Below, piece by piece: positions 1 through 8,204 of a stretch of DNA of 9,634 bases. Source of the stretch: Bacteroidota bacterium (GTDB taxonomy: Bacteria > Bacteroidota > Ignavibacteria > Ignavibacteriales > Melioribacteraceae). The stretch spans positions 1 to 9,634 of the forward strand of contig JAKAMS010000074.1 in assembly GCA_021812745.1 (NCBI GenBank), read 5' to 3'. The notes beneath the pieces were generated by a model. It saw nothing but the letters and a program-made list of their open reading frames with translations, was not told where the DNA came from and made no database searches. Made by a program: the position numbers and the translations under genes. Position 1 is the stretch's first letter. Each line of letters opens with the position of its first letter.

Positions 1-912
1 GGCAATAAAATAGCACTGCAGAGTTCGCCATTATTTAATGTTTATTTTCTTCTAATGTATGCGCTAATTTTTGCTTACGGCAATTTATCTGGGGAACGGG
101 GAGAGAGAGAATCGGTAAATACAATTTTAAATACCATAATTAATTCTCTTTTTTGTTTTCTCCTTTTATTAATTATTACTCTCGCTAAATTTAGCGATAC
201 AACTGCCATCTCTGAACTAATCAGTTCAATAGTTTTCCTTTTTCTTTCTGTTATTTACTATGAGAAACGAAAAAGTAAATACTCCACGTTCTTTTATGCT
301 ATTCTAGGATATACCGCATTAAGCGTTGCAATAGTGAATAGCTTTCCGAAGCCCGATTATTTTGTTTGGTTGAGCTGGCAAAGTATAATCGTGGTTGCAA
401 CAGCGCTTTGGTTCCGCTCAAAAATTATAATCGTTGCTAACTTTATAATGTATCTGATAATATTCTTCTCTTATCTAGTGTTGGAAGAAAAAATTGGCGT
501 AACTGCTCTAAGTTTTGGAATTGTAGCATTAATAAGCGCGCGTATTTTAAATTGGCAGAAACACCGGCTCGATCTCAAAACTGATGCTATGAGATTATCT
601 TACCTAGGAGCAATGTTCTTCATATTTCCTTACGCACTCTATCATATAGTACCAAAAGATTATGTTGCTCTTTCTTGGACTATAGTTGCAATTGGCTATT
701 ACGTAATGAGTATAATTCTAAAGAATAAAAAGTACAGATGGCTTGCACTCTTAACATTTTTATTAACGGTCGTATATATTCTTTTTGCAGGCACAACAAA
801 TTTAGATCCAAGTTACAGAATTATTTCTTTTATGTTTTTGGGAATAGTATTGTTAGTGATTTCAATTTTATACGCTAAACGGAAGAAAGGAAGTGATCTA
901 ATAAATAATTAA
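1..912 (+). CDS. C-terminal part of a polytopic membrane protein (DUF2339-like?), 5' end outside window
   Basis: The frame is open from base 1 to the TAA at 910-912, giving 303 codons. The first in-frame ATG (position 55) lies inside a hydrophobic helix that already begins around codon 10, and no ribosome site precedes it. I therefore read this as the 3' part of a longer gene. The visible part is almost entirely membrane: about ten or eleven hydrophobic segments separated by short, mostly basic loops, ending in a Lys/Arg-rich tail. The last segment, with a Tyr-Arg-Ile-Ile-Ser-Phe start and a KRKK end, resembles the C-terminus of DUF2339 predicted membrane proteins. That resemblance is from memory and weak. 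No catalytic motif is visible and I assign no function. It ends 30 bases before the preferred start of the cytochrome gene. It has no heme or metal motifs, so a role in the downstream respiratory locus is not indicated. Confidence 0.75.
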   Translation, partial: GNKIALQSSPLFNVYFLLMYALIFAYGNLSGERGERESVNTILNTIINSLFCFLLLLIITLAKFSDTTAISELISSIVFLFLSVIYYEKRKSKYSTFFYAILGYTALSVAIVNSFPKPDYFVWLSWQSIIVVATALWFRSKIIIVANFIMYLIIFFSYLVLEEKIGVTALSFGIVALISARILNWQKHRLDLKTDAMRLSYLGAMFFIFPYALYHIVPKDYVALSWTIVAIGYYVMSIILKNKKYRWLALLTFLLTVVYILFAGTTNLDPSYRIISFMFLGIVLLVISILYAKRKKGSDLINN

Positions 913-942: not shown

Positions 943-1692
943 ATGAAAAAATTTCTACAAAAGATTCCGGAACAAGTTAAACGCCTATCAATACTTTTGG
1001 TTGTTGTGGTGGTTGTCTTTATTGTAGCTCAATCGCTTCTTACTCCTAAAGATTTTGGTCTGATAGGTCATTACCGCGCCACTTCAGTTCAAAACAATGC
1101 CAACAAAAAAATGCAGTATGCCGGTCAGGAAGCATGCAGTGACTGCCATGAAGATATGTGGAAAATTAAAAATGCAGGATATCATAAAAATCTTTCATGC
1201 GAAGTATGCCACGGACCATCACTTAATCACGTTAATGAACCGGATCAATTCAAACCGGAAAAACCGATGGGAAGAAATTTTTGCCCTGTCTGTCATGAAT
1301 ATAATCCTTCACGTCCAACGGGTTTTCCTCAAATAGTATCTGCATCACACAATCCCAGAAAATTTTGTATTACATGCCATAACCCTCACAATCCAACTCC
1401 TCCACAGACGCCGAAAGATTGTTCTGCTTGCCATGCTGAAATATCAAATGCTAAATCTGTTTCGAGCCATATGGATATACCATGTACAAAATGTCACGAA
1501 ACTTCTGAGAAGCACAGACTAAGTCCGAGGGAATTTTTACCAACCAAACCAACTCAACGAGAATTCTGCGGACAGTGTCACTCTAAAGACGCAAAAGCCG
1601 ATGAATCAATTCCAAGAATAAATATGGATACTCACGAGCCGAGATACGTTTGCTGGCAATGTCACTACCCACATTTACCGGAGGCACAATAA
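943..1692 (+). CDS. Membrane-anchored octaheme cytochrome c (duplicated tetraheme unit)
   Basis: This 249-residue protein has a basic N-terminus (MKKFLQK) followed by one hydrophobic, Val-rich segment at about residues 16-30. That segment is either an uncleaved anchor or a signal peptide, and it places the rest outside the cytoplasmic membrane. Eight CXXCH c-heme sites start at residues 65, 86, 114, 142, 160, 181, 209 and 237. The two sets of four have identical spacing, so the protein is a tandem tetraheme duplication. The last heme of each set is followed by a CHxPH pattern. An in-frame ATG at 928 would add five residues. I prefer 943 because GGCGGA sits seven bases upstream and the charged signal region starts there. 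The stop overlaps the next start by one base (TAATG), so it is co-translated with the Fe-S protein. By analogy with NrfB or DsrJ in NrfBCD and DsrJOP systems, it probably exchanges electrons with the Fe-S/NrfD pair; the direction is not visible. Confidence 0.9.
   Translation: MKKFLQKIPEQVKRLSILLVVVVVVFIVAQSLLTPKDFGLIGHYRATSVQNNANKKMQYAGQEACSDCHEDMWKIKNAGYHKNLSCEVCHGPSLNHVNEPDQFKPEKPMGRNFCPVCHEYNPSRPTGFPQIVSASHNPRKFCITCHNPHNPTPPQTPKDCSACHAEISNAKSVSSHMDIPCTKCHETSEKHRLSPREFLPTKPTQREFCGQCHSKDAKADESIPRINMDTHEPRYVCWQCHYPHLPEAQ
1135..1389 (+). repeat. Tetraheme repeat unit 1 of the octaheme cytochrome
   Basis: This is the first 85-codon unit, from the first heme Cys to the His of the CHNPH motif (residues 65-149). 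Heme cysteines lie at offsets 0, 21, 49 and 77. A gap-free comparison with unit 2 by hand gives 31 identical positions of 85, 12 of which are the CXXCH residues themselves. Confidence 0.85.
1420..1674 (+). repeat. Tetraheme repeat unit 2 of the octaheme cytochrome
   Basis: This is the second 85-codon unit (residues 160-244). Heme cysteines lie at the same offsets 0, 21, 49 and 77, and it ends in CHYPH. Non-heme identities with unit 1 include the KP pair and the Arg-x-Phe before heme 3, and the His-x-Pro-Arg before heme 4. A ten-residue linker containing a Pro/Thr-rich stretch separates the units. The DNA has diverged, so the duplication is old. Confidence 0.85.
1680..1684 (+). promoter_or_regulatory. 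Ribosome binding site (GGAGG) for the Fe-S protein
   Basis: GGAGG lies seven bases before the ATG at 1692. This fixes 1692 rather than the in-frame ATG at 1650, which would lie inside the cytochrome gene and spoil the Tat signal's position at the N-terminus. Confidence 0.8.
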
Positions 1693-2486
1693 TGGACAAG
1701 AATGTAAATCAAACAGATAAAAAAGTTGAGCGAAGAAATTTTCTAAAGAAGCTGGCAATACTTGCTCTTGCACCAATTGCGTTTGGGTTTCTCGGATCAA
1801 CGGATAAATTAAAAACTATAAAAAAATGGATGTTGGAAAACGGATACGTGCCCAGCAACCACAAATGGGGAATGGGCATAGATATAAACAAGTGTATTGG
1901 TTGCGGCAGATGCGCCGTTGCTTGTAAAAATGAAAATAATGTTCCCAAAGAACCTTTCTTCTTTAGAACTTGGGTTGAACGTTATCGAATTTATGAAGAC
2001 GGAGATATTCAAGTTGATAGTCCGAATGGTTCTATAGATGGATTCGAAAATTCGCGTACAGACAAAAAAATGTTGAGAAGTTTCTTCGTTCCTAAAATTT
2101 GTAATCATTGTGAAAATCCTCCTTGTGTACAAGTTTGTCCTGTAGGGGCAACTTTTAAGGGTGAGGATGGAGTTGTTTTGGTTGACTCGGATTACTGCGT
2201 AGGATGCAGATATTGTATACAAGCATGCCCTTACGGTGCAAGATTCTTACATCCAGTAACACATACAGCTGAAAAATGTACATTCTGTTATCATAGAATT
2301 GTACAGGGTAAATTGCCGGCGTGTGTTGAAGTGTGCCCTACTCAGGCAAGAGTTTTTGGCGAGTTGAATAAAAAAGCAAGTCCGTTAGTTCGTTTCTTAA
2401 GAATGAATAAAATTGGAGTTCTTAAACCATCATTAAACACCGAACCAAAAGTTTATTATGCTAACTTAGATATGGAGGTAAAATAA
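1692..2486 (+). CDS. Tat-exported ferredoxin-type subunit with four [4Fe-4S] clusters (NrfC/DsrO/HybA-like)
   Basis: This 264-residue electron-transfer subunit opens with a twin-arginine signal: Arg14-Arg15 followed by NFLKK and a hydrophobic stretch to about residue 34. Sixteen cysteines form four cluster-binding groups. They are CxxCxxCxxxC at 68-78, CxxCxxxxCxxxC at 137-149, CxxCxxCxxxC followed by Pro at 169-179, and CxxC...CxxxCP at 196-215. This arrangement is that of the NrfC/DsrO/PsrB/HybA family, which normally partners an NrfD-type membrane protein. The Tat signal argues that it is folded with its clusters in the cytoplasm and works on the outer face, next to the octaheme protein. 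There is no obvious Ala-x-Ala cleavage site, so it may stay anchored. It overlaps the upstream gene by one base, and the NrfD start follows two bases after its stop. The trio is almost certainly one transcript and one complex. Confidence 0.92.
   Translation: MDKNVNQTDKKVERRNFLKKLAILALAPIAFGFLGSTDKLKTIKKWMLENGYVPSNHKWGMGIDINKCIGCGRCAVACKNENNVPKEPFFFRTWVERYRIYEDGDIQVDSPNGSIDGFENSRTDKKMLRSFFVPKICNHCENPPCVQVCPVGATFKGEDGVVLVDSDYCVGCRYCIQACPYGARFLHPVTHTAEKCTFCYHRIVQGKLPACVEVCPTQARVFGELNKKASPLVRFLRMNKIGVLKPSLNTEPKVYYANLDMEVK
2474..2478 (+). promoter_or_regulatory. Ribosome binding site (GGAGG) supporting a TTG start
   Basis: GGAGG is embedded in the last codons of the Fe-S gene, ten bases before the TTG at 2489. 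No ATG in the NrfD frame lies near the expected N-terminus, so this site is the main evidence for the TTG initiation codon. Confidence 0.7.
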
Positions 2487-2488
2487 CA

Positions 2489-3682
2489 TTGGAAGAGCTC
2501 ATACAGCATTTGACGCCAATACTTAAGGAAATATGGGGCTATATTTTTCCAAATGAAATTGAACTCCATTGGGGAATTCTTATAGTATTATATCCTTATT
2601 TGACAGGATTAGTTGCCGGTGCATTTATATTGGCATCGTTAGTTAAGGTCTTCAACGTAAAAGAACTTCAGCCTACATACCGTTTAGCAATGCTTACTGC
2701 AATGTCATTTTTAATTGTTGCTCCTCTTCCATTACTTGCGCACTTAGGTCATCCTGAAAGGGCATACGAAATATTGATTACGCCTAACAGCACTTCTGCA
2801 ATGGCAATGTTCGGTTTTGTATATGCATGGTATTTAATGGCAGTTCTATGTTTAGAGATTTGGTTTGAATATAGAAGAGATATAATTCTTTGGTCTCAAA
2901 AAGAAACCGGAATCAAAAAATGGATTCATAAAATTGTTTCTCTCTTTTCAAAAGATATTTCAGAGAAAGCAGTTCACTTCGATAAAAAATGGGTAAAGAT
3001 CATTACTATAATTGGTATTCCTTCTGCTTTTCTTTTGCACGGTTATGTAGGATTTATCTTTGGTTCTATCAAAGCAAATCCGTGGTGGTCAAGTGTGTTA
3101 ATGCCAATTGTGTTTTTGTTCTCTGCAATTGTTTCCGGTATAGCAATGGTATTAATTCTCTATATGATAATAACACCTTTTCGCGGTAAAGAGCTGGACA
3201 TTTTGTGCCTTGATAAATTAGCAAGTTATCTCTTCTATGCAATGATCATAGATTTCTCTCTTGAAGCGCTGGATTTTGTACACCGTGTTTATGAATCCGA
3301 AGAGTCAATTAAAATTTTAGCATACCTTGTCTCTAACAAATTATTCGTTAGTCTAATTGTAATTCAACTTTTCATGGGAATGCTTATTCCGCTTTTGATG
3401 ATAGCGCTAATTAAAATCTTAAAATCGCCTCCGGATTTGAAGAAAATGATTTACTTCATTTCAGCTATTCTTGTGCAAGTAGGAATATTTTCCACACGAT
3501 GGAATATTGTAATTGGGGGGCAATTATTCTCAAAAAGCTTCAGAGGATTGACTGTCTATAAAATAACATTTTTTGGCTTGGAAGGATTTTTTGCGGCGGT
3601 AGTTATATTTTGTCTTCCATTCATAATCCTGTATATTCTTACAAAGATTCTTCCGCCATGGGAAGAAGCTAGAAATTCTTGA
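2489..3682 (+). CDS. NrfD/PsrC-family integral membrane quinone-reactive subunit
   Basis: This polytopic membrane protein of 397 residues begins at TTG. Family-like marks are a first helix with the Tyr-x-Leu-x-Gly-Leu-x-Ala-Gly type pattern (residues 35-44), the HLGHPER loop at 85-91, a helix carrying LHGYVGF at 183-189, and ANPWW at 196-200 leading into the next helix. Together these are typical of NrfD/DsrP/ActC/PsrC proteins, which bind menaquinone or menaquinol and pass electrons to or from an attached Fe-S subunit. About eight to ten helices can be drawn. A basic, soluble-looking loop lies at about residues 128-168. It follows the Fe-S gene by two bases. No molybdopterin catalytic subunit is nearby, so the module looks more like NrfBCD or DsrJOP than polysulfide reductase. 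Reaction direction (quinol oxidation or quinone reduction) cannot be read from sequence. Confidence 0.88.
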   Translation: MEELIQHLTPILKEIWGYIFPNEIELHWGILIVLYPYLTGLVAGAFILASLVKVFNVKELQPTYRLAMLTAMSFLIVAPLPLLAHLGHPERAYEILITPNSTSAMAMFGFVYAWYLMAVLCLEIWFEYRRDIILWSQKETGIKKWIHKIVSLFSKDISEKAVHFDKKWVKIITIIGIPSAFLLHGYVGFIFGSIKANPWWSSVLMPIVFLFSAIVSGIAMVLILYMIITPFRGKELDILCLDKLASYLFYAMIIDFSLEALDFVHRVYESEESIKILAYLVSNKLFVSLIVIQLFMGMLIPLLMIALIKILKSPPDLKKMIYFISAILVQVGIFSTRWNIVIGGQLFSKSFRGLTVYKITFFGLEGFFAAVVIFCLPFIILYILTKILPPWEEARNS

Positions 3683-3696
3683 AAGAAGAATTTTTA
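3670..3696 (+). other. A+T-rich hairpin across the NrfD stop codon
   Basis: TAGAAATTCTT and AAGAATTTTTA can pair over 11 positions (one G-U) around the five-base loop GAAAG. The TGA stop at 3680-3682 lies at the stem/loop junction. The stem is weak in GC and has no clean T-run after it, so it is at best an attenuator or RNA-processing element between the NrfD trio and the Rieske/b genes. Confidence 0.35.
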
Positions 3697-3709
3697 TAAT
3701 AATTAATTG

Positions 3710-3731
3710 AATTCATCATCAAAAATGAATT
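3710..3731 (+). other. Small inverted repeat just before the Rieske start
   Basis: AATTCAT (3710-3716) and ATGAATT (3725-3731) are perfect inverted arms with an eight-base loop, ending four bases before the preferred ATG. No good ribosome site is visible here. The arms could form a translational hairpin or an operator-like palindrome, or could be chance in A+T-rich DNA. Confidence 0.25.
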
Positions 3732-3735
3732 GGTT

Positions 3736-4167
3736 ATGAAATTAGATAGAAGAAAATTTCTGAATACGCTTTTAGGTGTTGGAGGAATCGGCGGAATCTT
3801 AGCTGTGTTTTATCCAATCTTTTCATTCTTGATTCCACCCAAAAGCGCCGAACCAAAAGTGAATTCTGTTAAAGCTGGTTTGAGTTCCGAGTTTCCTACC
3901 AATAGTTATAAGATTATAAAGTTTGGTAGAAAGCCGGTAATTTTAATTAAAACAGAAGACAATCAATACAAAGCACTCTCTGCCAGTTGTACGCATTTAG
4001 ACTGCATTGTTCAATATAAAAGTGATACAAAGCAGATCTGGTGTGCCTGTCATAATGGAATTTACGATCTGAACGGACGTAACGTTTCGGGACCGCCTCC
4101 AAGACCTCTTGAAGAGTATGATGTAAAAGTAGTTAGAGAAGAGATTGTAATTACTAAAATGGGTTAA
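3736..4167 (+). CDS. Rieske [2Fe-2S] protein of a cytochrome bc-type complex
   Basis: This 143-residue protein (a TTG at 3730 would add two residues) has a twin-arginine signal-anchor: DRRKFLN at residues 4-10, then a Gly-rich hydrophobic helix to about residue 35. The cluster domain has CTHLDC at 85-90 and CACHNGIYD at 103-111. Cluster ligands are Cys85, His87, Cys103 and His106, with Cys90 and Cys105 as the disulfide pair. A Pro-rich loop (GPPPRPL) at 119-125 matches the Pro loop of bc1/b6f Rieske proteins. The second loop lacks the usual Ser after CHG: Ser is replaced by Gly108, while Tyr110 is kept. The first loop has Asp89 where Gly is usual. It takes the first electron in quinol oxidation at the outer-side site, working with the cytochrome b encoded three bases downstream. 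The length is short but complete for a minimal menaquinol-type Rieske. Confidence 0.93.
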   Translation: MKLDRRKFLNTLLGVGGIGGILAVFYPIFSFLIPPKSAEPKVNSVKAGLSSEFPTNSYKIIKFGRKPVILIKTEDNQYKALSASCTHLDCIVQYKSDTKQIWCACHNGIYDLNGRNVSGPPPRPLEEYDVKVVREEIVITKMG

Positions 4168-4170
4168 AAA

Positions 4171-5253
4171 ATGACCGGGAATTTTGGAAATAAAATTATT
4201 TCATGGATTGATGAGCGGTATGATATATCGCCATTAAGAAATATGCTAAAGCATAAAAAGGTTCCTGTCCACAAACATTCAATGTGGTATTATATGGGCG
4301 GGGTAACACTTTTTTTATTTGTGGTTCAGTTACTTACCGGGATACTTCTGCTTCTATATTATAGACCGGGCGAAGACAATGCTTACGAAAGTGTCCGCTT
4401 CATTGTTACAGAAGTTAGATTCGGATGGCTGATCAGAAATGTACACAGTTGGTCGGCGAATTTATTAGTTCTGTTTGCTTTTATTCATATGTTCAGTGTT
4501 TTCTTCTCTAAAGCATACGAAAAACCGCGTGAGTTAACGTGGGTAACAGGATTTATCGTTTTGGTCTTTACCCTTGCGTTCGGATTTAGCGGCTATCTTT
4601 TGCCATGGAATGAACTTGCATATTTTGCAACAAAGGTTGGCACAGATATAGTCGGAGTAGTTCCTGTAATTGGAGAGCCGTTAAAAATATTTTTGCGCGG
4701 CGGCGAAGATGTAACCGGTGCAACTCTTTCACGGTTCTTTGGCATTCACGTTGCAATTCTTCCTGCCATATTTACAGTTTTTTTAACATTGCATTTATTG
4801 TTTATTCAGCGTCAAGGAATGCACGAACCGGAACATTTCAAAAACTTGCCGGAAGAAAAGAAAAAGTATATTCCTTTCTTTCCGGATTTTGCTTTGAAAG
4901 ATCTTCTTTTATGGGTCATTGTTTTTAATATTTTGATTTTCCTGGCTCTCTATTTTCCGTGGGAATTAGGAAACAAGGCAGATGCATTTGCCGCGGCACC
5001 GGCAGGAATAAGACCGGAATGGTATTTTATGTTCATGTTCCAATCGCTGAAACTTCTTCCGGCACACATTTTATTTCTAGAAGGCGAATTGCTGGGAGTA
5101 TTATTTTTTGGCGCTGCGGGTTTTGTATGGATGTTAATTCCTTACATCAAAGTAAAACATAAACCTAATTGGAAAATTCAGCCCCTAACTTTAATTGGAA
5201 TTATTATTGTAGCGTTCATAGTGATAATGACCGTAATAGGTTACTTAGTATAG
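4171..5253 (+). CDS. Cytochrome b, b6 and subunit IV in one chain
   Basis: This 360-residue membrane protein carries the diheme b6 part and the subunit IV part in one polypeptide. Heme b ligands are His92 and His106 in one helix (13 residues between) and His193 and His208 in another (14 between). The 14-residue spacing is the b6f/menaquinol-type pattern; bc1 has 13. PEWYF at 282-286, the quinol-oxidation-site motif, is present with the family's PEWYF spelling. The GGVTL motif at 43-47 aligns with the b6 region that carries the cysteine for heme cn, but Tyr41 stands at that position, so a covalent cn heme is not predicted. About seven or eight helices fit, fewer than the eight plus tail of full bc1 cytochrome b. 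It follows the Rieske gene by three bases and precedes the nonaheme gene by 11. Together these three are the core of a quinol:cytochrome c oxidoreductase without cytochrome c1 or f. Confidence 0.94.
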
Positions 5254-5256
5254 GGA
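5252..5256 (+). promoter_or_regulatory. Ribosome binding site (AGGGA) for the nonaheme cytochrome
   Basis: AGGGA overlaps the cytochrome b stop codon and lies eight bases before the ATG at 5265. This supports 5265 rather than an in-frame ATG at 5169 inside cytochrome b. Confidence 0.6.
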
Positions 5257-5264
5257 ATAATAAC

Positions 5265-6542
5265 ATGAGAACAAGATTTTTTCACGTATTAATATATTTT
5301 ATAACAATTTCATCTCTACTCGGTGTTGTTATTTCCGGACAGAAGGAAAATAAAAATATTCAGAGTTCCCAAGAAGATCATTGTTATACATGTCATAAAG
5401 AAAATGATAATCTGCCAAAAGATTTTTCAGAAAACGACACACACCGTCACGCAAACATTTCATGTTCATCTTGCCATGGCGGAGACCCCACCAGCGATGA
5501 TCAAGAAGTTGCAATGAGTCCTGCAAAGGGATTTGTTGGCGTTCCAAAACATAAAGACATTCCTAAATTTTGCGGTAAGTGCCATTCGAATATTAACATC
5601 ATGAGAGTATTTCAGCCAAGAATAGCAACAGATCAGGTTGAACAATATTACACAAGCATGCATGGTAAAAAACTTTTAGCTGGTGACGAAAATGTTGCAG
5701 AATGTGCCAGTTGTCATTCGGCTCACGCGATACTTCCCGCAAAAGATCCGCGCTCAACTGTTTATGCGTTAAATGTTCCGGCAACATGCAATAAATGTCA
5801 CGGCAATTCAGAGTTGATGAAAAAATATAATCTCCCGAGCAACCAACTGGAAGAATATTCCAAAAGCGTTCACGGGGTCGCACTTCTTAAAATGAAAGAC
5901 ACAGGTGCACCTGCTTGTAATGATTGTCATGGCAATCATGGTGCAATGCCTCCGGGAGTTACATCAATTTCCCATGTGTGCGGAACCTGCCATGTGAGCA
6001 ATATGGAATATTTCAACGCGACAAGAATGGCAAAAGCATTTGAAGAACAAGATTTTCATGGATGCGAACAGTGCCACGGAAATCATGCTGTGTTAAAACC
6101 ATCTGATGAAATGGTCGGTGTTGGTAAAGATTCGAAATGTGTTGACTGCCATTCATCGGGCGATGAGGGTTATGCCGTAGCGAAAGGGATCTATTCATCG
6201 CTGACAAATTTGAAAAATCGGTTCTCTTTGGCAGAAGCAAAATATTTAGATGTTAAGAAGAAAGGAATGAATGATGTTGAAATTGGATTCCTGCTTCAAG
6301 ATGCTAATCAAGCCCTGATTCAATCAAGAACATTGATTCATACTTTTGATTCGACTAAAGTTGGCGCTAAGACAAAAGAAGGTATTGATATTTCTAATAA
6401 AGCTTCTTTGCTGGCACAAAAAGAAATTGATGAATATTATTCACGAAGAAATGGTTTTGCTGTTGCAACTTTAGTCTTTCTTTTAGTTGTCATAGCGCTT
6501 TATTTCAAAATAAAAGACAAAGAGAAAAAAACCAATAAATAA
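5265..6542 (+). CDS. Nonaheme cytochrome c with C-terminal membrane anchor
   Basis: This 425-residue protein starts with a signal peptide (basic MRTR, hydrophobic to about residue 24). Nine CXXCH sites begin at residues 40, 67, 103, 147, 175, 218, 239, 267 and 292. Three of them (147, 218, 267) have the form CXXCHxxH followed shortly by Pro, and each is followed by another CXXCH. This gives three paired-heme modules preceded by three single sites. Residues 128-179 and 198-243 are recognisably related (Tyr, Ser, HG, LL, then two hemes). After the last heme comes a helical, heme-free domain (about 303-393), then one transmembrane helix at about 396-414 and a basic tail facing the cytoplasm. With no cytochrome c1 or f in the cluster, this is the likely redox partner that takes electrons from the Rieske/cytochrome b core. 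That role is inferred from position. I do not recognise a named family beyond multiheme cytochrome c. Confidence 0.92.
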   Translation: MRTRFFHVLIYFITISSLLGVVISGQKENKNIQSSQEDHCYTCHKENDNLPKDFSENDTHRHANISCSSCHGGDPTSDDQEVAMSPAKGFVGVPKHKDIPKFCGKCHSNINIMRVFQPRIATDQVEQYYTSMHGKKLLAGDENVAECASCHSAHAILPAKDPRSTVYALNVPATCNKCHGNSELMKKYNLPSNQLEEYSKSVHGVALLKMKDTGAPACNDCHGNHGAMPPGVTSISHVCGTCHVSNMEYFNATRMAKAFEEQDFHGCEQCHGNHAVLKPSDEMVGVGKDSKCVDCHSSGDEGYAVAKGIYSSLTNLKNRFSLAEAKYLDVKKKGMNDVEIGFLLQDANQALIQSRTLIHTFDSTKVGAKTKEGIDISNKASLLAQKEIDEYYSRRNGFAVATLVFLLVVIALYFKIKDKEKKTNK

Positions 6543-6695: not shown

Positions 6696-8204
6696 ATGAA
6701 ACTAAAATTACCTCATTCATCCCAAAATTGGGTTTCTTTGGCTGGTGCTACTATTGCATTGATCAGTCTTTTCATGATAATCTTTCTGTTTGTTATAACC
6801 TTCACATCCGGAGGAGGGACTTATTTAGGATTAGTGGTTTATATAATTCTTCCCGGTTTCCTGGTAATGGGATTATTAATGATTCCATTAGGCATGTTTC
6901 TAAAGGTCAGAAGCAATAGGAAAAAACATATTCTTCCTCCAACAGAATGGCCGCAGGTTAATCTAAACGATATTCGGCACAGACATGCATTTTTTATTTT
7001 TGCAATCGGAACAACAATTTTTCTTTTTCTAACAGCATTCGGCAGTTACGAAGCGTTTCATTATACCGAATCGGTAGAATTTTGCGGTAAACTTTGTCAT
7101 AATGTAATGGCGCCTGAATATACCGCATATCAAAACTCTCCCCATGCAAGAGTAGCCTGCGTTGATTGCCATGTTGGAACTGGCGCAAGCTGGTATGTTA
7201 GATCTAAGCTTTCTGGTTTATACCAGGTGTACGCAGTTACCTTGGGTACCGTACCAAGACCAATTGAAACACCAATTTCAAATTTGCGCCCGGCGCGTGA
7301 GACATGCGAGCAATGTCATTGGCCTCAAAAATTTTATTCGAGAAAACTTGTAACTCAAAGACATTATATGCCAGATGAAAACAATTCTGAATGGGATATC
7401 TCTCTGAATATGAAAATAGGGGCTCAAATAAGTGCTCTTGGAACACAAGAAGGAATTCATTGGCACATCAATCCAGATGTTAAGATAGAATACAAAGCTT
7501 CGGACAGCAAGCGAGAAAAAATTCCATGGGTTAGATATACTAACTTAAAAACCGGCGAAGTTTTTGTTTATCAAGATAAAAATGAAAGTGTTGAGAAAAG
7601 CGCTTTAGATACAATGCAGACACGCACAATGGATTGTATGGATTGCCATAACAGACCGTCGCATAATTATCAACCTCCAACATTTTTCTTAAATAATGCG
7701 CTTGCCGCAGGCACTATTCCAAAAGAACTTCCATGGATAAAATCCAAAGCGCTTGAAATTATGGATAAAAAGTTTTCTACGACCGATACGGCAATGATTG
7801 TTATTAGAGACGAAATAAATAAATATTATAAAGAAAAGTATCCGGATATTTATTCTAACAAAAAATATTTGGTTGATAAAGCTGTCAAAGGAATTCAAGA
7901 AGCTTTTAAGAAAAATATTTTTCCGGAGATGAAAGTTCGTTGGAATGTCTATCCGAATAATATCGGGCATATGGAATTTATGGGGTGTTTCCGCTGCCAT
8001 AATGACAATCACTCAACTGCTCAGGGCAGAGTGATAAAAAGAGATTGCAATCAATGTCACCTAATTAATGCGCAGGGACCGCCGGATAAATTGGAAGTTT
8101 CTCCGATTAATGCATTCCTAATATTCAAGCATCCGGATAAGGAAAGCGGAGATGCTTGGAAAGAGATGAATTGCGTTGAGTGTCATACCGGCGTAAACCC
8201 GTAA
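6696..8204 (+). CDS. Heptaheme NapC/NirT-type inner-membrane quinol dehydrogenase, ImcH-like
   Basis: This 502-residue protein begins with three transmembrane helices (about 13-36, 43-69 and 97-121), followed by a periplasmic multiheme domain. The first heme site is unusual, CGKLCH at 130-135 (CX3CH), followed by NVM and then a SPHARV segment. Six regular CXXCH sites start at residues 155, 204, 314, 431, 451 and 493. The first two sites and their surroundings are the NapC/NirT/NrfH quinol-oxidising domain. The long insert between residues 209 and 313 and the later hemes make it much larger than NapC. Size, three helices and seven hemes resemble Geobacter sulfurreducens ImcH, an inner-membrane cytochrome needed for extracellular electron transfer to higher-potential acceptors. 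The resemblance is from memory, so I give no symbol. It lies 153 bases after the nonaheme gene behind a promoter-like site, and a strong terminator follows. It may be separately controlled yet part of the same pathway. Confidence 0.9.
   Translation: MKLKLPHSSQNWVSLAGATIALISLFMIIFLFVITFTSGGGTYLGLVVYIILPGFLVMGLLMIPLGMFLKVRSNRKKHILPPTEWPQVNLNDIRHRHAFFIFAIGTTIFLFLTAFGSYEAFHYTESVEFCGKLCHNVMAPEYTAYQNSPHARVACVDCHVGTGASWYVRSKLSGLYQVYAVTLGTVPRPIETPISNLRPARETCEQCHWPQKFYSRKLVTQRHYMPDENNSEWDISLNMKIGAQISALGTQEGIHWHINPDVKIEYKASDSKREKIPWVRYTNLKTGEVFVYQDKNESVEKSALDTMQTRTMDCMDCHNRPSHNYQPPTFFLNNALAAGTIPKELPWIKSKALEIMDKKFSTTDTAMIVIRDEINKYYKEKYPDIYSNKKYLVDKAVKGIQEAFKKNIFPEMKVRWNVYPNNIGHMEFMGCFRCHNDNHSTAQGRVIKRDCNQCHLINAQGPPDKLEVSPINAFLIFKHPDKESGDAWKEMNCVECHTGVNP

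Follow-up and report, generated by a model that had tools for sequence, protein, structure and literature searches.

A gene block in Ignavibacteria that probably encodes three kinds of quinol:cytochrome c oxidoreductase

Does an NrfD-type gene trio that stands directly before a Rieske/cytochrome b module form one complex with it, or do the two work as separable enzymes? This question is raised by a 9,634-nucleotide stretch from an uncultured Bacteroidota bacterium (Ignavibacteria, Melioribacteraceae; contig JAKAMS010000074.1), referred to here as the window. The initial annotation of this DNA had described a six-gene cluster running from an octaheme cytochrome c (c1) through a 4x[4Fe-4S] subunit (FeS subunit) and NrfD, together the trio, to a Rieske protein, a fused cytochrome b and a nonaheme cytochrome c (c2). 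All six genes are present in that order on the plus strand, with a fused cytochrome b and intergenic gaps of -1, 2, 53, 3 and 11 bases. The unit does not stop at six, since a DUF2339 gene lies upstream and an ImcH-like gene downstream; both this DUF2339 protein and the third quinone-reactive module, the ImcH-like one, had been overlooked. Judged from its predicted proteins, the cluster is probably a block of three kinds of quinol:cytochrome c oxidoreductase: octaheme/4x[4Fe-4S]/NrfD, Rieske/cytochrome b/nonaheme, and ImcH-like.

The closest relatives show that the block can lose one of its parts. Relatives whose proteins are 58-99% identical share the six-gene order, and in the nearest genome (G001) the block proteins are 95-99% identical to those of the window, except c2 (92%) and the FeS subunit (94%). 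All 12 same-genus genomes have a cytochrome b of the window type, and NrfD lies directly before the Rieske gene in 10 of them (in G009 as a C-terminal piece only, at a contig edge). In the remaining two, G002 and G005, the trio is absent and the Rieske/b/c2/ImcH-like block is intact, so that the six proteins cannot be taken for a fixed six-subunit complex. One of these genomes carries a deletion scar: 305 bases separate the DUF2339 and Rieske genes of G002 (locus L023), and 254 of them match window positions 3476-3729, which span the last part of nrfD plus the spacer (74% identity, E 5.5e-43), with one TGA within the nrfD part. Because this decayed remnant sits at the junction, G002 once had the trio and then lost it; no NrfD match was found in G005. 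The ratio of nonsynonymous to synonymous substitution rates (dN/dS), calculated pairwise against the window or G011, is 0.02-0.07 for the Rieske, cytochrome b, c2 and ImcH-like genes of G002, and 0.04-0.08 over all seven genes for the trio-bearing pair of window and G011. As the trio was deleted in G002 while the remaining genes stayed constrained, the remainder of the block can very probably function in its absence. The ImcH-like gene follows c2 immediately in 8 of the 12 genomes (G001, G002, G003, G004, G006, G008, G009 and G011), one gene intervenes in G005, and contig ends truncate the blocks of G007 and G010 (the latter inside the ImcH-like gene). In G012 (72% complete; L031:6269-12800) the cytochrome b gene is followed by a 5-heme, molybdopterin, FeS, NrfD and 4-heme set resembling Qrc or Alternative complex III, after which a c2-like piece begins at the contig end.

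A survey of the class, comprising 391 genomes at a match threshold of E <= 1e-60, places this loss in a wider pattern. Cytochrome b was detected in 168 genomes, a count that includes paralogues below 55% identity, and NrfD in 36, of which 22 carry full-length proteins (66-99% identity), one a fragment (G392) and 13 proteins of 38-44% identity. Every one of the 22 full-length NrfD carriers also has cytochrome b (hypergeometric 3.7e-9, kinship ignored), located less than 1 kb away in 17; it lies on another contig in G118, G137, G334 and G271 (that of G271 starts at a contig edge) and 17 kb off in G294. Because all 22 NrfD carriers have cytochrome b, yet only 22 of the 168 cytochrome b genomes have NrfD, the trio is, on these gene matches, an add-on mostly seated on the Rieske/b module, and not vice versa. 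The initial annotation had counted it as a refutation if the two halves occurred mostly apart in relatives; this holds when viewed from cytochrome b and fails when viewed from NrfD.

The same association extends beyond the class. We inspected named NrfD loci, the best 80 of 464 relatives, the counts of which therefore lean to close kin; an intact trio was called in 63, and some of the others are cut by contig ends. The Rieske gene directly follows NrfD in 22 of these loci, a recurrence of the synteny beyond chance, and a Rieske or cytochrome b gene lies elsewhere in the flanks of 14; in 31 the flank is too short to judge absence. Direct joining is found under the locus titles Bacteroidetes/Ignavibacteriae/Melioribacter, Neomarinimicrobiota, KSB1 and Caldithrix abyssi, as well as two plain 'bacterium', which bears out the claimed link between the halves outside the 17 class genomes too. 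Loci in which the genes are near and unjoined are titled Aminicenantes, Deferribacteres, Fischerbacteria, Eisenbacteria, Latescibacterota, Omnitrophica/Omnitrophota, Gemmatimonadales/Gemmatimonadota, Acidobacteria, Rokubacteria/Rokuibacteriota and one uncultured bacterium. Tree distances of NrfD and cytochrome b were compared in 31 of the 36 loci having both genes (20 of 22 direct and 11 of 14 near, owing to length limits) and in the window. They correlate in the direct loci including the window (rho 0.73, n=21) and in 13 more distant ones (rho 0.65), with 0 of 2000 permutations as high in each case, whereas in the near loci rho is 0.09 (n=11), with 492 of 2000 permutations as high.

What kind of enzyme does the trio encode? 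Its first gene (943..1692) specifies c1, a protein of 249 residues with 8 CXXCH motifs and a single hydrophobic segment (residues 15-33, Kyte-Doolittle), an N-terminal membrane anchor. In an alignment of the window with 36 of 65 eligible c1 proteins, the 8 CXXCH histidines are paired numerically with exactly 8 other histidines that do not vary in any of the 37 rows; no methionine is conserved in at least 85% of these rows. This conservation suggests an all-bis-His, low-potential octaheme wire, predicted to lack a free (five-coordinate) heme. The FeS subunit gene (1692..2486) shares one base with the c1 stop and encodes an NrfC/DsrO-like protein with 16 cysteines, each kept in at least 72 of 73 rows. 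Its RRNFLKK leader we take to be a twin-arginine (Tat)-type motif; an RRxF-type motif occurs within the first 60 residues in only 42 of 72 FeS relatives. The third gene (2489..3682, TTG start) encodes a 397-residue membrane subunit with neither heme nor Fe-S motif, assigned to the NrfD superfamily by PF03916 (147.5 bits, cut-off 25.8) and 77-99% identical across 10 relatives; close homologues with a source name or title are labelled Ignavibacteriales, Ignavibacteriae, Melioribacteraceae, Melioribacter or Bacteroidetes. Sequence searches of the PDB gave an NrfC-type protein (2vpw_B) as the top match of the FeS subunit, just two weak matches for c1 and none for NrfD. The halves had been likened to NrfBCD/DsrJOP-type systems and to bc-type complexes; membership in the NrfD superfamily and the bc-type features described below agree with this, while the narrower NCBIfam models do not reach their cut-offs, either for NrfC and NrfD (TIGR03149, 171 of 377.6 bits; TIGR03148, 55.2 of 347.6 bits) or for DsrO (198.0 of 200, just under) and DsrP (57.4 of 350).

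The second module has the marks of a bc-type complex. The Rieske [2Fe-2S] subunit (3736..4167; PF00355, 53.9 bits) carries its ligands in the motifs CTHLDC...CACHNGIYD, and the cytochrome b (4171..5253; PF00033, PF00032) combines b6-like and subunit IV-like parts in a single chain, with the four heme b histidines (H92/H106 and H193/H208) and PEWY present in 7 of 7 rows. A cysteine for heme cn is a hallmark of b6f complexes; as the cytochrome b here has no cysteine at all, no covalent heme cn is expected. Neither is the module a canonical bc1 or b6f complex by its family scores (TIGR01416, 62.7 of 97.4; NF002990, 245.6 of 325), and the place of cytochrome c1/f is occupied by the nonaheme c2 (5265..6542). 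This protein has 9 CXXCH motifs, a signal-like N-terminus and a C-terminal anchor (hydrophobic segments 5-23 and 398-416). In an alignment of 25 rows, made of the window plus 24 of the 27 eligible c2 proteins and including 5 rows with 11 heme motifs, the 9 CXXCH histidines face 7 further invariant histidines, Met185 (25 of 25 rows) and Met113 (24 of 25; Ile in L095). The simplest reading of this pattern suggests that the wire beside the Rieske centre has two higher-potential hemes of the His/Met type. The Rieske protein itself has Gly at the potential-raising Ser position of bc1, as do all 34 proteins with a Rieske motif that were counted across the 80 loci; among these 34, the Tyr position is Tyr in 23 and Phe in 11. 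In yeast, the potential is reported to drop by 130 mV when that Ser is lost (PMC12954380, available part), and the residues at hand thus suggest a low-potential Rieske centre, fitting menaquinol.

The third module begins 153 bases past c2. According to the available part of PMC6295460, proteins of the ImcH family, quinol oxidases of extracellular respiration, have 495-519 residues, three N-terminal helices, one CX3CH and six CX2CH motifs, a NapC/NirT-like part and an identity of 31.5-49% or more to the Geobacter group, and Melioribacter roseus is among the listed carriers. The gene at 6696..8204, on the plus strand, encodes a heptaheme protein of 502 residues with hydrophobic segments at 18-36, 45-63 and 98-116 (Kyte-Doolittle), a CX3CH at 130 that adjoins these N-terminal segments, six CX2CH and a match to PF03264 (43.9 bits, cut-off 24.1), and on this layout we call it ImcH-like. 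Its distribution was assessed in a sample of 44 genomes drawn from the 168 with cytochrome b, made up of all 22 NrfD carriers and 22 others, each with more than a distant cytochrome b, chosen by hand among the relatives and the early entries of the list; 20 of the 223 genomes without a cytochrome b match served as a control. An ImcH-like protein is present in 40 of the 44 genomes, less than 5 kb from cytochrome b in 22 of those 40, and the gene lies less than 5 kb from NrfD in 15 of the 20 genomes having both. Full-length ImcH-like genes with 6 or 7 heme motifs also occur inside the flanks of 14 of the 80 NrfD loci. Separately, six loci (L060, L062, L088, L090, L113 and L116) have 18-heme cytochromes of 625-685 residues adjoining or near the trio, which match the ImcH-like query over about 16% of its length only.

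Upstream of the trio, the window begins within a gene for a multi-spanning membrane protein (1..912, plus strand), the C-terminal part of which is preserved at the window edge. The full protein in G001 has 547 residues and belongs to DUF2339 (PF10101, 57.3 bits, cut-off 33.6). It was found in 30 of the 44 Rieske/b genomes and in 0 of the 20 control genomes, which lack a cytochrome b match at E <= 1e-60 (Fisher 7e-8, kinship ignored), and lies less than 6 kb from cytochrome b in 21 of the 30 carriers. DUF2339, a Pfam family without assigned function, thereby becomes a candidate part of Rieske/b complexes, as a putative subunit or assembly factor. The protein accompanies Rieske/b even without the trio (for example L021:11041-12684:-), and its gene lies downstream rather than upstream of Rieske/b in L034, L035, L036 and L038. 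Similar-sized two-protein pairs stand upstream of Rieske/b in L034, L035 and L038, and the pair of L034 consists of a histidine kinase and a sigma-54 response regulator. Elsewhere, in L037:569-10158 (G029), the ImcH-like gene is immediately preceded by cytochromes with 13 and 19 heme motifs and by a cytochrome b561-like protein; such b561-like proteins, a fourth quinone-reactive type in the block, hold the same place in L037, L077 and L083 (in L083 just under the Pfam cut-off). Downstream of the ImcH-like gene, the window contains ABC-transporter and RadA genes. Scans of the window gave no RNA family at gathering score and no tRNA, and a sigma-70 promoter scan was uninformative (23 found versus 25.7 in shuffles).

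How might these modules work together? With somewhat better than even confidence, we favour the reading that one block encodes three separable menaquinol:cytochrome c oxidoreductases that work as parallel gears, presumably without a fixed supercomplex and with a shared periplasmic pool, into multiheme cytochromes. The first gear, NrfD with the 4x[4Fe-4S] subunit and the octaheme wire of bis-His hemes only, would serve lower-potential acceptors. The second would be a bc-type Q-cycle complex of Rieske, cytochrome b and nonaheme wire, the multiheme protein replacing c1/f. It would bifurcate quinol and earn extra charge with acceptors whose potential is high enough for the Rieske centre and the putative His/Met hemes of c2 to be oxidised, and would earn the most and demand the most positive acceptor. 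The third, the ImcH-like heptaheme protein, would act as a simple quinol oxidase, and all three would deliver electrons to periplasmic or extracellular multiheme cytochromes. There is a precedent in Geobacter, where different quinol oxidases (ImcH, CbcL and CbcBA) serve different acceptor potentials according to the available parts of PMC12307469 and PMC6295460. Further quinone-reactive modules at the same place in some relatives, either b561-like cytochromes or a Mo/FeS/NrfD set, we count in favour of this modular reading.

Several points weigh against it. Loss of the trio shows that the modules are separable and not that they lack contact where both are present; the pairwise dN/dS values also average the time preceding this loss, and the correlated distances in joined loci also fit physical interaction. 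Rieske/b is missing from 13 of the 80 NrfD loci despite at least 8 kb on both sides, and ImcH-like genes occur in 9 of the 20 genomes without a cytochrome b match. The ImcH-like protein was assigned by layout and not by alignment to Geobacter ImcH, while the heme ligation of c1 and c2 is deduced from conservation alone. A single residue does not fix the potential of a Rieske centre, and an anammox Rieske protein without the Tyr had a higher potential than one with it (PMC12954380, available part). Finally, the window contains no outer-membrane conduit, and an extracellular acceptor is proposed by analogy with relatives and with the known role of ImcH.

Other readings of the same genes were weighed against parallel gears. 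The supercomplex put forward in the initial annotation, possibly a facultative one in which c1 touches c2 and both quinone sites share one exit wire, would agree with the tight packing, the joining in 17 of 22 genomes and the correlated distances of NrfD and cytochrome b. We consider it unlikely, because shared descent by itself can yield such a correlation, none is seen in the 11 usable of 14 near-unjoined loci, most cytochrome b carriers have no full-length NrfD, and the other genes are intact where the trio has been deleted (G002) or is absent (G005). The latter two genomes lead us to reject an obligate supercomplex, with the modules always together. Unlikely, too, is the proposal that the halves run in opposite directions, with periplasmic or extracellular donors reducing menaquinone through c1/FeS/NrfD and the bc-type complex oxidising it, or the reverse, as a redox loop. 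Direction cannot be told from the window sequence, and NrfD-type complexes are reported to work both ways, Qrc being a cytochrome c3:menaquinone oxidoreductase (PMC13059093 and PMC8076601, available parts); against this, ImcH is implicated in quinol oxidation only (PMC6295460, available part), and the annotated window genes include no donor enzyme or donor conduit. We give only a small chance to a plug-in respirasome, in which an older complex of the bc type would have a nonaheme protein for its exit wire and DUF2339 for a hitherto unrecognised subunit or assembly factor, and NrfD could be mounted on it as a proton-translocating arm; the Q-cycle and the NrfD gear would then share one heme wire, and the cell would switch gear with acceptor potential.

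A cluster dedicated to nitrite respiration of the Nrf type, with the trio donating to nitrite reductase, is suggested by the NrfC/NrfD-like subunits and by the NrfH-like similarity of the heptaheme protein. It is highly improbable, since the NrfC, NrfD and NrfH models stay below curated cut-offs, no NrfA domain occurs among the window genes, and c1 is predicted to have no free heme. Near full-length NrfA (E < 1e-130) was matched in 7 of 22 trio-bearing versus 8 of 22 trio-lacking genomes, with internal stops in 3 of these 15 matches and shorter matches in G022, G050 and G294. Among trio carriers, G001 and G004 have no NrfA match, that of G006 is below the cut-off and that of G008 is short and just above it. 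On this distribution NrfA is not a general partner, and we reject a nitrite-specific cluster. Accidental proximity of independent, functionally unrelated operons is likewise very unlikely: the trio and the Rieske/b module are separable, and the 53-base gap between them holds a hairpin, yet the joining recurs across families in varied arrangements and all 22 NrfD carriers have cytochrome b. The hairpin (window ~3670-3696, between nrfD and the Rieske gene) is AT-rich, with 11 pairs and -8.5 kcal/mol, and is followed by T's. It is specific to the window; the corresponding stretch of ten relatives has a different best hairpin, inside the end of nrfD, and a conserved terminator between the halves was rejected on these grounds. 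A consensus terminator scan, which requires 3 G-C pairs and is blind to this AT-only stem, found 5 versus 5.7 in shuffles overall. The hairpin is possibly a young attenuator, and a transcription stop near 3670-3696 is possible in the window itself.

Returning to the three parallel gears, the choice among several quinol oxidases by acceptor potential is an open question that has been studied in Geobacter, where the enzymes are listed as separate complexes. With NrfD, bc-type and ImcH-like gears in one block and a natural loss of the trio, gear switching and modularity become testable.

How far does the block resemble known systems? NetBCD is composed of a heme c, a 4Fe-4S and a membrane subunit, and we presume that CbcU is of the NrfD type. 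The trio shares this make-up with CbcSTU of Geobacter, with NetBCD and with the NrfCD-multiheme sets known, in the sources available in part, from Melioribacter roseus and MBNT15, which are proposed quinol:periplasmic cytochrome reductases. NetBCD of Aeromonas is named in the available part of PMC9012536. CbcSTU is labelled 4-heme c, 4Fe-4S and 'b-type cytochrome' in PMC10989804 (available part) and is listed as a separate complex, whereas c1 is an octaheme protein and the trio is joined to Rieske/b. Alternative complex III, Qrc, Nhc and DsrMKJOP also pair FeS and heme c proteins with a membrane subunit of the NrfD type (PMC8076601); they differ in that the window genes include no molybdopterin-like subunit. 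The word Rieske is absent from the available text of that review of NrfD-type complexes, and no description of a trio, Rieske/b and ImcH in one block was found in the open-licence literature searched, as far as its texts were available. The project that yielded the KSB1 locus L057 describes a different NrfD cluster, with molybdopterin and ActD-like parts (PMC10732223, available part), and Rieske/b is known, from a source available in part, in a Nap cluster of Caldithrix. The nearest mixed cluster found in print is PcmABCDEFG of Geobacter metallireducens (Gmet_2117-2123), with a membrane protein, 4Fe-4S, two cytochromes b, Rieske and c cytochromes (PMC10989804, available part); it differs in its two cytochrome b genes and two tetraheme c. 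In the second module, Rieske and cytochrome b with a multiheme c in place of cytochrome c1/f recall CbcVWX of Geobacter (Rieske, cytochrome b, 5-heme c; PMC10989804, available part) and the bc cluster GSU2930-2937, with 2-, 10-, 12- and 5-heme proteins (PMC2825233, available part). The window differs from both in other gene content and in a nonaheme protein with a C-terminal anchor and two candidate His/Met hemes. The ImcH-like protein resembles ImcH in length range, three N-terminal helices, CX3CH plus six CX2CH and NapC/NirT-like part; its gene shares a block with two other modules, whereas the neighbours given for ImcH are c-type cytochrome genes, with Rieske and NrfD unmentioned in the available part of PMC6295460. 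Each module of the block has a known relative in Geobacter, namely CbcSTU, CbcVWX and ImcH.

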